From Arenimonas sp. GDDSR-1 (GTDB lineage: Bacteria; Pseudomonadota; Gammaproteobacteria; Xanthomonadales; Xanthomonadaceae), in the NCBI RefSeq assembly GCF_025980345.1, contig NZ_JAPDUI010000017.1, forward strand, positions 1-64,000: 64,000 nt of DNA, read 5' to 3'. Below are positions 52,674-57,258 of the stretch, in pieces; within the stretch, counting starts at the first letter, position 1, and each line of letters begins with the position of its first letter. The position numbers and the translations under genes are program-made. Below the pieces are notes generated by a model. The model saw only the letters and a program-made list of their open reading frames with translations, was not told where the DNA came from and ran no database searches.

Positions 52674-53807
52674 CTAGAGGCGGTGCTCGTTGAGGATGTC
52701 GGAAATCGGCGAGCCGGCCATTTTGGCCAGCTCATCCAGGGATTTCGGGGTTTCGTCAACCAGACTGTTCTGGATGTTCTCGAGCTGGTCGAAAATGCGC
52801 TCGAACACATGCACCAGATCAGGATCGAAGTGGGTACCCGAACGTTCCCGGAAGTACACCAGGGTCTCCTCGGCCGACCAAGCCGTCTTGTACGGACGAG
52901 CCGAGCGCAACGCGTCGTAAACGTCACAGATTGCGGCGATGCGACCCGACAGCGGAATTTCCTCGCCCTTCAGGCCCTGCGGGTAGCCGTTGCCGTCCCA
53001 GTGCTCGTGATGGTATAGCGCGATTTCCGCAGCCAGACGGCTGAGCGGGGTACCCATGCTGTCGCTCATGATGTGATGGCCGATGCGGGCATGATGTTTC
53101 ATGATTTCACGCTCTTCCGACGTGAACGGTCCGGATTTCTGCAGGATCGCCTCGGGAATGCCGATCTTGCCGATATCGTGCATCGGCATGGCCAACCTCA
53201 TGTGCTCGCACTGCTCTTCGGTCAGGCCGATGGCGCGCGCCATCAGCGCCGCGTATTCGCCGATGCGCATGACGTGACGCTCGGTTTCGTTTTCCTTGTA
53301 GCCTGCGGCACGGGAGAGAATGCCGATGATGCTCTGGTAGCTGCTGCGCAACTGCGCGGTGCGCTCATGCACGGCCTGTTCCAGCTGGTTGCGTTCCAGA
53401 CGAAGGAAGTGATTTGCCGCGCTCAGTTCCAGATTGTTGCGGACCCGCAGCAGCAGCTCGGGCAGATCCAGCGGTTTGCAGATGTAGTCGTTGGCGCCCA
53501 GGGCCAGGCCTTTGCGTCGGTCTTCCGGACGGCTGAGCGCGCTGGCGATGATGATCGGCGCCGCGCTGCGGTCCCGCACTGCCAGCGCCTGCAGGATATC
53601 GAACCCGTTCGGCGCCGGCATGTCCAGATCGAGTACCAGAAGATCCCAGGGATTGCTTTGCAGCCAGGCCAGGGATTCCGCGGAATCGCTGAAGGCGCGG
53701 ATGTTGCGCAGGCCGAATGCGCGCATGCTGGACTCGAGCAGGCGCAGATTGGCGGGCGTATCATCGACCAGAACCACGGTCGCATTTTTCAAATTATCGG
53801 GCAGCAT
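52674..53807 (-). CDS. Response regulator with HD-GYP c-di-GMP phosphodiesterase domain (RpfG-like)
   Basis: Receiver 'VVLVDDTPANLRLLE'; 'MHDIGKIGIPEAIL' and 'HHEHWDGNGYPQGL' motifs intact. Confidence 0.94.
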   Translation of the reverse strand: MLPDNLKNATVVLVDDTPANLRLLESSMRAFGLRNIRAFSDSAESLAWLQSNPWDLLVLDLDMPAPNGFDILQALAVRDRSAAPIIIASALSRPEDRRKGLALGANDYICKPLDLPELLLRVRNNLELSAANHFLRLERNQLEQAVHERTAQLRSSYQSIIGILSRAAGYKENETERHVMRIGEYAALMARAIGLTEEQCEHMRLAMPMHDIGKIGIPEAILQKSGPFTSEEREIMKHHARIGHHIMSDSMGTPLSRLAAEIALYHHEHWDGNGYPQGLKGEEIPLSGRIAAICDVYDALRSARPYKTAWSAEETLVYFRERSGTHFDPDLVHVFERIFDQLENIQNSLVDETPKSLDELAKMAGSPISDILNEHRL

Positions 53808-53811
53808 CGGT

Positions 53812-56706
53812 TTATCCTCGGGAGTTCAGTAGAGCGCTGACCAGACGGCGCAGTTCGGCGCTGTCCAGCGGTTTGGCCAGAAAACCCTGGCAATCCAGAT
53901 CGAGAAGCTGGCCGGCCCCGACCACGCCGCTGAGCACCACGACCTTGAGCGCGCGGGTGCGGACATCGGCACGCAGCGCCTGCAGGAGATCCTTGCCGTT
54001 CATCCCGGGCAGATTGATATCGAGTAGCAGCAGCACGGGCGGTGCATCCAGTATACGCGCAAGGGCTTCACGGCCGTCGGCAACGACGTCGATGCATGCC
54101 ATGTCTTCAAGCGCCATCTTGACCAGGAACTGACTGGCGGGATTGTCTTCGACCAGAACAACGCGCGGCAAGGCCCGGGGCTGCTCAGACGTCAGCGGCG
54201 CCGTGGCCGGCACCGGCGGGACGGAACGGTTCAACGGAAGCTCGATCCAGAAACTGCTGCCGATGCCCGGATGGCTGCTGACGCCCATGCGGCCGCCCAT
54301 CAGCGTGGCGAATTCGCGGCACAGCGACAGGCCGAGTCCGGTACCGAGAATGGCGGTATTCTCGCGGCCCAGTCGCTGGAACGGCTGGAACAGCTGGCCC
54401 TGCAGTTCGGCGCCGATGCCCATGCCGGTATCCTCGACGATGATGCGCACATGCTGGCCGGCGATCTGGTAGGTCAGCGTAATCTGGCCTTCGGGCGAGT
54501 TGTACTTGATGGCATTCGATATCAGATTGATGATGACCTGACGCAAGCGGCGCGGATCGGCCGGTACGCTGAAGTCTTCAGGCGGTAGATCGAGGTTCAG
54601 CGTCAGCCCGGCACGCTCGATTTCAACGCGGACCAGTTCGGCGCAGGCCAGCATGGCTTCGCGCACGATGACCGGCTGAAGTTCAATGGACTGGGGTTCC
54701 GATTGGGCACTGGACCACTCCAGAATATCGCCGACCACCTGGTTCAGGTGACTGCTGGCACTGATGATTTCGTCGATGTACTGCGGCTCGTCGTTTCCGC
54801 TGCCGGACGGGTGCTGCATGCGGATGAGCTGTGCAAAGCCCTGGATGGCATTGAGCGGCGTACGTAGCTCGTGAGTCATGCTGGAAATGAAGCGCGACTT
54901 GGCGACGCTGGCGGCCTGGGCCTCGAGGCTGGCTTCGCGCAGCTCCATTTCGGTATTCTTCAGCGCGTCGATGTCGTGATGGGTGCCGCCGACCAGCAGC
55001 GCCTTTCCGGTCTGCGGGTCGCGCTCGAGCACGCGGCCGCGACTGAGCAGCCAGTGGTAGTTGCCGACGGCGTCGGCAAAGCGGTATTCGCTGTAGTAGA
55101 AATCCTGCACGCCGTCGACGGCCAGCTGTTTGGCTTCGAAAACGGCCTTCAGATCCTCGGGGTGGCCGTGCGAACGGAATTCCTCCTCGGTGACCGTTTC
55201 ACCGCTCAGGCCGAAACGCTTGGCGAAGCGGCCGCGCACGGTTACGGTATTGGCGCGCAGATCCTGCTCCCAGACGCTTTCGGTCGTGCCTTCCAGAACC
55301 AGTTCGAGGCGCTGCTGCGCCTGCTGCCGTTCGGCTTCACTTTGGCCCAGACGCTGGCCCATGGCCGAGGCATGTCCGGCCATGGCGTCCAGTTCGCTGA
55401 TTTCGGAACCGGCCCTGGCCGGCTGCCACAGGCCGTTGCCGATCTGGTCGAGCATGCGGGAAACGCCGATGATCGGCTTCTCCAGACGTGCGCTCAGGCT
55501 GCGCGAGCGCAGCCACATGTAGGTGAAGAATACTGCATAGAAGAATACGAGTCCGGCGATCAGCAGATAGCCGATCTGGGTGAAGCGTCCGGCCAGCATA
55601 TTGGTTTGCTGGAAGATATCCTCCTCGGCAACCACGGCCATCAACCGCCAGCCGGTCTGCTCGATGCGCGTCCATGCCACCAGATGCGACTTGCCGCCGA
55701 GGGGCAGCGCGATGATGCCGGAAGCATTGGCCTGCATGGCCCGTGCCAGCTTCTGGGTGTCCTTGCGTTTGCCGAGATTGAAATCAGAGGGTTTGTACCT
55801 TTCCTTGCTGATGGCTTCGTCATAGGTGAAATCGGTCAGCTCGGTCAGGCCGAAATCGGCTTCGCCGGCTTCGGGCAGTGCCATGATGTTCAGCTCGTCA
55901 CTGACCAGCACGGCATAGCCATTCCAAGGCACCTTGAGGTTGCTGATTTCCGTCAGAATGTTGCCGACCGTGACATCCAGCCCGACCACGCCTTCCAGAA
56001 AGTCGGCGCGGTACACGGGCGCGATGGCGGACATCATCCAGCCCTGTCCGGCCGGATCGACATAGACATCGGTCCAGACTACGCCGCGTTTCGGGTTGTG
56101 TTTGGCATCGGCCAGATAGTAGAAGTTGTAGTCCGGAATCGGCATGTTGTGGTCATACTGTTCCGGCGTCAGGAACCAGGGATAGATGTAGTTCAGACTG
56201 TCCCAGCTGTTGAAGTAAATCGCCGACACCAGCGGATTCTCGGCTTTGATCTGGCGCATCAGGCCATCGACGTGTTCGAGCTTGGCGAGCTTGACCAGGT
56301 CATGGCCGCTCTTTTTCCAGAGCGCGGCCGAATAGAACACCGCGGGGCGGCCGTCGTCCTTCGGGCTGTAGTGCACGCCGGTATCGGTCAAAGCCAGATT
56401 CGAGGTCAACGGCACGGTTTTGGGGTCACGCAGCGCGCTGCCCACTTCATTGGCATACATGCGTGTAAGCGCGCCGATTGCCGACAGCTGCTGGTCGATG
56501 ACGCGCGATTCCTGGCTGGCCACCGCGCGCAGGTCGTTGCGCGCGTTCTCCCGCAGATACTCGATCTGGGCATCACGGATGGCGCTGTTGCTGAGCAGGT
56601 AGACGGCAATCAGGACCGTCTCCACCAGCAGCAGCGGAATCAGCGCACTTTGCATGAAGGCGCGCCACATCCAGGTGCGCAGCTGCACCGTAGGGTTTTG
56701 TTTCAT
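53812..56706 (-). CDS. Hybrid sensor histidine kinase (dCache-like sensor, HAMP/PAS, HisKA, HATPase, receiver)
   Basis: 'MTHELRTPLNAIQGFAQLI', 'NLISNAIKYNSPEGQ', 'GTGLGLSLCREFATLMGG', receiver 'VVLVEDNPASQFL...LLLLDINLPGMNG'. Confidence 0.93.
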   Translation of the reverse strand: MKQNPTVQLRTWMWRAFMQSALIPLLLVETVLIAVYLLSNSAIRDAQIEYLRENARNDLRAVASQESRVIDQQLSAIGALTRMYANEVGSALRDPKTVPLTSNLALTDTGVHYSPKDDGRPAVFYSAALWKKSGHDLVKLAKLEHVDGLMRQIKAENPLVSAIYFNSWDSLNYIYPWFLTPEQYDHNMPIPDYNFYYLADAKHNPKRGVVWTDVYVDPAGQGWMMSAIAPVYRADFLEGVVGLDVTVGNILTEISNLKVPWNGYAVLVSDELNIMALPEAGEADFGLTELTDFTYDEAISKERYKPSDFNLGKRKDTQKLARAMQANASGIIALPLGGKSHLVAWTRIEQTGWRLMAVVAEEDIFQQTNMLAGRFTQIGYLLIAGLVFFYAVFFTYMWLRSRSLSARLEKPIIGVSRMLDQIGNGLWQPARAGSEISELDAMAGHASAMGQRLGQSEAERQQAQQRLELVLEGTTESVWEQDLRANTVTVRGRFAKRFGLSGETVTEEEFRSHGHPEDLKAVFEAKQLAVDGVQDFYYSEYRFADAVGNYHWLLSRGRVLERDPQTGKALLVGGTHHDIDALKNTEMELREASLEAQAASVAKSRFISSMTHELRTPLNAIQGFAQLIRMQHPSGSGNDEPQYIDEIISASSHLNQVVGDILEWSSAQSEPQSIELQPVIVREAMLACAELVRVEIERAGLTLNLDLPPEDFSVPADPRRLRQVIINLISNAIKYNSPEGQITLTYQIAGQHVRIIVEDTGMGIGAELQGQLFQPFQRLGRENTAILGTGLGLSLCREFATLMGGRMGVSSHPGIGSSFWIELPLNRSVPPVPATAPLTSEQPRALPRVVLVEDNPASQFLVKMALEDMACIDVVADGREALARILDAPPVLLLLDINLPGMNGKDLLQALRADVRTRALKVVVLSGVVGAGQLLDLDCQGFLAKPLDSAELRRLVSALLNSRG

Positions 56707-56786: not shown

Positions 56787-56816
56787 AAAAAAAGAGGCCA
56801 CGCAGGGCGTGGCCTT
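56787..56816 (-). terminator. Strong intrinsic terminator (minus strand), upstream of the histidine kinase
   Basis: Minus strand AGGCCACGC-CCT-GCGTGGCCTCTTTTTTT. Confidence 0.9.
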
Positions 56817-56940
56817 TAAAAGTGTGATGGAATGAACACACCTGGGATCGGCGGAGCAGAGAGAGGGAGGGCGCTCCGCACATCAGGTAAATCCATATTA
56901 TTTTAATAATACAAGTATTGGTATTAATATTTTTAATAGT
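56787..56940 (-). ncRNA. Candidate small RNA with C/U-rich hairpin loop (5' end not defined)
   Basis: Minus strand GCGGAGC-[GCCCTCCCTCTCTCT]-GCTCCGC hairpin (56851-56879), then an 8-9 bp terminator plus T7; preceded by an AT-rich region at 56885-56970. Confidence 0.5.
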
Positions 56941-57258
56941 GATTATGTGTATTTTTAATTTAATCAACCACATATCGCGCAGCACATCGGCCTCAGGACC
57001 TCGCCAAGCCCTGATGAGCCCGCGCGCGCACGGGGTTTGGGTCTGCCGACTCCGCCGAGATGTCGGAAATCCGTCCACCACAGTTGAATTGTAAATTTAT
57101 TGTGAAATCGAAAGAATCCCGGACCAAGGCCAACCCATATATCGGTTATTTGCGCGGAACCGGCACGGCCTTCCACACCAAGCCATCGCCTTTTGATTTC
57201 CTGTCCGCTACCAGCGCAGGGATTACAATGAAAGCCTGTACAGGCCAATGAGAACTCC

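Follow-up and report, generated by a model that had tools for sequence, protein, structure and literature searches.

We found that the minus strand of the window, the whole 64,000-nt stretch of Arenimonas DNA that we analysed, carries a putative small RNA (sRNA) gene of ~107 nt (56787–56893) with orthologues in two related genomes. As the sequence-only reading of this DNA had proposed, the element is very likely an independent gene. That conclusion is well supported because a promoter-like site is conserved, loop and linker are kept while the stem sequence changes, the terminator is conserved, there is no upstream gene on the same strand, and the neighbouring kinase gene has a separate promoter-like site. 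The fuller reading of a stand-alone gene whose RNA acts in trans through its loop is also likely, with somewhat less assurance; our analysis shows the sequence, the predicted fold, the pattern of conservation and the order of genes, and from these we infer transcription, pairing, repression and the use of a chaperone.

Predicted structure of the element

The element has a 5′ hairpin (56851–56879, minus strand) with a 7-bp stem and the full sequence GCGGAGC-GCCCTCCCTCTCTCT-GCTCCGC. Its 15-nt pyrimidine-rich loop, GCCCUCCCUCUCUCU (56858–56872), is the proposed seed for pairing with Shine-Dalgarno sequences. A 14-nt linker, GGUGUGUUCAUUCC (56829–56842), which may serve as a second binding site, separates the hairpin from an intrinsic terminator with a 9-bp stem and a U-tract (56815–56787; AGGCCACGC-CCT-GCGTGGCCT-CTTTTTTT). 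The predicted fold has one pyrimidine-loop hairpin plus the terminator. The minus-strand sequence contains the 7-bp hairpin, the 15-nt loop and the terminator as the sequence-only reading had described them. Its range for the element, 56787 to 56940, is slightly long on the 5′ side, as the predicted start is near 56893 and 56894–56960 is promoter and AT-rich upstream sequence.

To compare the fold with chance, we used dinucleotide shuffles. The 106-nt piece from 56893 to 56788 has a predicted energy of –39.1 kcal/mol, compared to –21.6 ± 2.9 kcal/mol for the shuffles (z = –6.0; 0 of 200), and the orthologue in genome G006 has a z of –5.5. A terminator scan does recover the terminator; however, about one site of this type also turns up by chance in shuffles of the region, and taken alone the terminator is unremarkable. 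The weight rests on the combination with conservation: the predicted fold is stable and ends in a rho-independent terminator, which is conserved in three species.

Conservation of loop, linker and terminator

Our first search for relatives covered 61 genomes, namely the window's own (G000) and 60 relatives, and took in the whole genus. We found an orthologue with 83% identity (E = 5.6e-49) in G001, on a contig from the metagenome assembly of an uncultured gammaproteobacterium, and a weaker match in G006. Both copies sit between yjdM and an orthologue of the kinase gene. The loop is identical in G000 and G001, and G006 retains its core, CUCCCUCUCU; the linker is invariant in the three-species alignments, and the terminator stem GCCACGC/GCGUGGC is aligned in all three. 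The sequence-only reading had made its proposal depend on conservation outside this strain, and the terminator and at least the loop core are conserved in G001 and G006. Outside the element, the intergenic DNA aligns poorly with that of G006, and the global alignment scores 110 compared to at most 43.5 for 300 shuffles.

In G006, the stem of the hairpin is replaced, with pairing kept around the pyrimidine core (GAAGCGTG/CACGCTTC, written also as GAAGCGUG/CACGCUUC); a helix as long as the longest one in G006, with G-U pairs allowed, was reached by 0.04% of shuffled flanks. Between G000 and G001, two pairs are changed on both sides, from U-A to G-C in the hairpin and from G-C to A-U in the terminator. 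For the stem covariation that had been suggested as a check, three sequences give no statistically strong signal: between 41 and 198 of 500 shuffles reached or passed the pair measures, in part because the G006 stem is out of register in the alignment. Because these formal counts do not clearly exceed shuffles, the argument for RNA conservation rests on the sequences themselves.

To see how far the element extends, we ran a pattern search that joins the loop core to the linker over 299 genomes of the family, 17 of them of this genus; three genomes matched, every match was at this locus, and the reversed control gave 0 matches. A stricter stem-and-loop pattern over 27 genus genomes returned G000 and G001 only, to which the first relatives search adds G006, so the element is found in three of the 27. 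With a covariance model, we searched the yjdM loci of 12 other genus genomes that have this gene and found no copy beside it. The same kind of search over 120 family genomes gave, apart from the window itself, a best score of at most 29 bits compared to 130, with no convincing distant relative, and the loop and linker motifs were both absent from the 14 top-scoring loci elsewhere. The element was not found in the viral contigs searched.

The sequence-only reading had said that no ORF of normal size precedes the element, which is correct; only a 26-codon ATG-to-TAA frame (56896–56816, minus strand), which we judged to be non-coding, runs through the hairpin. In principle, this frame could encode MDLPDVRSALPLSAPPIPGVFIPSHF as a small protein or a leader peptide, and the hairpin would then be incidental; the frame spans the element in G000 and a similar peptide, MDLPELWSALPLSAPSLSGVFIP, can be read in G001. 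However, the differences between the G000 and G001 ORFs fall 5/1/4 on codon positions 1/2/3, the G001 ORF has an earlier stop, and the predicted transcript would begin at the ATG or downstream of it. In G006, the frame does not exist and the linker would fall in another frame. Since the 26-codon ORF is lost in this third species, the conserved thing is the RNA, and we regard a peptide product as very improbable.

Promoter-like sites and genomic neighbourhood

Upstream of the element we found a promoter-like site, TTAATA-16-TAAAAT (56900–56927, minus strand; consensus scan), that was absent from the sequence-only reading and that would place the transcription start at ~56893. In the alignment, the 16-nt spacing is common to G000 and G001 (both TTAATA-16-TAAAAT) and G006 (TTCATA-16-TAATAT). 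Next to it lies an AT-rich stretch (56928–56975, minus strand) where G000 and G001 are 75–85% identical, compared to mostly 35–70% farther upstream, and where ATTAAAAA, CATA and other letters are invariant across the three species. It may be an UP-element-like or regulator site, possibly the binding site for a regulator of the RNA. The element has its own promoter-like site, as judged by sequence, and is intergenic with no coding gene upstream on the same strand; yjdM (PhnA domain) and a lipocalin gene lie divergently on the opposite strand. Because these two genes point away on the other strand, there is no protein gene for the terminator to end.

On the other side, the adjacent gene (53812–56706, minus strand) encodes a hybrid sensor histidine kinase with Cache-like, PAS, HisKA, HATPase and receiver domains (Pfam). 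It is followed on the minus strand by an HD-GYP-type response regulator (52674–56706 together), and the two are possibly a c-di-GMP signalling pair. We found a full-length kinase orthologue (72–100% identity) in three of the 27 genus genomes, G000, G001 and G006 only, and a GTDB scan with the kinase returned one related locus, which is G001. Within the genus, the element and the kinase thus have an identical distribution, in these three genomes. The three are probably closely related to one another, and a single evolutionary event may underlie the co-occurrence.

The main rival explanation is a leader or attenuator of the kinase gene. Transcription would again start at 56893, but the terminator would be read through in a signal-dependent manner and hairpin and linker would act in cis. 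The terminator is on the same strand as the kinase gene and ~80 bases before its start, and a leader would also account for the shared distribution. In contrast, the kinase gene has a promoter-like site of its own after the terminator, TTGGCA-17-TATGCT (56773–56745, minus strand; consensus scan), as had been reported from the sequence; the hexamers and spacing of this site are the same in G001, and it is not recognisable in G006. By inspection, we found no antiterminator pairing shared by all three sequences, although in G006 alone GCGUG of the stem could pair with CACGC of the terminator. We found no leader peptide that is conserved, and no Rfam leader or riboswitch reached its cut-off (Leu_leader scored 21.6 bits compared to 50). 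We therefore consider a kinase leader unlikely.

Less likely still is that terminator and hairpin merely shield the kinase gene from stray transcription and make no regulatory RNA. No other part of the element is as strong as the terminator and transcription of the sRNA is a prediction, which fits a shielding role; however, such a role leaves unexplained why the promoter spacing is conserved, why the loop core is held on a changed stem and why the 14-nt linker is invariant. A further, more speculative idea is that RNA and kinase form a lineage-specific pair, in which the sRNA is gained and lost with the hybrid kinase and might act as its output arm or feedback brake, using loop and GGUGUGUUCAUUCC linker for different partners. 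We hold this idea only tentatively. The co-occurrence with one sensor kinase offers a testable link between a signal and an RNA.

Proposed mechanism and relation to known small RNAs

In the mechanism that we propose, RNA polymerase would start near 56893 at TTAATA-16-TAAAAT and stop at the terminator at 56787, and the ~107-nt product would consist of 5′ hairpin, short linker and 3′ terminator. The stem would present the C/U-rich loop in single-stranded form. The loop is the complement of AGAGAGGGAG and hence of strong purine-rich ribosome-binding sites. With AGAGAGGGAG as core target, the loop would pair in trans with G/A-rich ribosome-binding sites and block translation there, while the invariant linker would make a second contact, with a different mRNA or with an RNA chaperone such as Hfq. 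We infer this anti-Shine-Dalgarno mechanism from the loop and from analogy, and on these grounds the RNA probably represses mRNAs through pairing of its loop with G/A-rich Shine-Dalgarno regions.

The analogy draws on three groups of RNAs. Xanthomonas sX13, which is short and structured like the candidate, represses in trans through C-rich apical loops that target G-rich sites close to translation starts, in Shine-Dalgarno regions (PMC3771888). However, the three stem-loops of sX13 carry 4C/5C motifs, as described in the same work, and its gene is at the polA locus, whereas the candidate lies between yjdM and the histidine kinase gene and has one pyrimidine loop (core CUCCCUCUCU) and an invariant linker; neither the three stem-loops nor the polA locus is found here. 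In the Rhizobiales CCUCCUCCC-loop RNAs (SmelA075, SmelA099), the anti-Shine-Dalgarno loop is fixed and the stems are variable (PMC3927594), and a conserved loop of this type on stems of variable sequence is what they share with the candidate. These RNAs form three or four hairpins, each of which has a CCUCCUCCC-like loop; in contrast, the candidate has a single hairpin whose loop is of another motif (GCCCUCCCUCUCUCU), and it comes from a gammaproteobacterium. The sequence-only reading had likened the element to both groups, and the likeness stands as one of function and falls as one of family: the candidate is neither an sX13 nor a Rhizobiales CCUCCUCCC RNA, and it probably works like them.

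The third group is LhrC1-5 of Listeria, which is induced by a two-component system and whose C/U-rich loop pairs with AG-rich Shine-Dalgarno regions; LhrC4 represses in trans through such a loop, acting on these regions (PMC5880928). LhrC RNAs exist in five copies and have several C/U-rich sites, one of which is the terminator loop, whereas the candidate is a single locus with no known sequence relation to them, and its link to a kinase is by position only.

An Rfam scan of the window, which had been suggested as a check, found no family at its cut-off, and permissive scans gave only sub-threshold matches that differed among the three orthologues. In the window, the candidate weakly matches suhB/mmgR (RF00519, 29.5 bits compared to a cut-off of 41) and ncS54 (RF02871, 26.4 compared to 43), mainly through the terminator hairpin and U-tract, and the G006 and G001 orthologues lack these matches. 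A weak asX2 match was also seen on the opposite strand in two orthologues. The RNA thus falls in none of the families tested and is best regarded as a new family of a well-known kind. It adds a previously undescribed sRNA family of clear anatomy, from a gammaproteobacterial group represented here by genome assemblies alone, and it is another case of a pyrimidine loop suited to ribosome-binding sites that is kept while its stem drifts, suggesting that such loops arise repeatedly.

Candidate targets

Loop core and linker, the two candidate seeds, are conserved, and the complement searches did not establish target enrichment. For the loop, AGAGAGGGAGRG with one mismatch was no commoner than its reversed control. 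A 12-mer, GGAGAGGGAGGG, is present in all three genomes; we rejected it as a target, as it complements the 3′ end of a tRNA-like gene that, from its sequence, is apparently tRNA-Ser. For the linker, complements gave more matches than the reversed control, mostly inside long open frames; because in those frames GTGTTCATTCC is readable as codons of the opposite strand, we make no claim of linker targets from this search.

We also observed GGAATGGAAACACC, a near-complement of the linker, immediately upstream of the start of a potG/potA-like polyamine ABC transporter ATPase gene, at its start codon (G000:C15:10194 and G001:C54:6495). The predicted pairing energy at this site is –19.7; among background start regions of the window, the best reaches practically the same value, –19.6, and as a linker target the site is only a lead.

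For the loop, a GlsB/YeaQ-like small membrane protein gene (Pfam Transgly_assoc; C15:15170–15430 in G000) has the sole AGAGGGAG-spacer-ATG site in the G000 genome and in the G001 genome, and this site is the ribosome-binding site of the gene. The predicted pairing with the loop is –19.7 kcal/mol. Since pairing at or below –18 kcal/mol is reached by 0.35% of random 50-mers, several such pairings per genome are expected by chance and the site is a lead, not a result; the GlsB/YeaQ-like gene as a target of the RNA is only suggestive. G006, which has the element, lacks this GlsB-like Shine-Dalgarno site. In the relative G024, where the element was not found in an 85% complete assembly, the GlsB-like site carries GAGAGGAAA and is predicted to pair at –14.2 kcal/mol.
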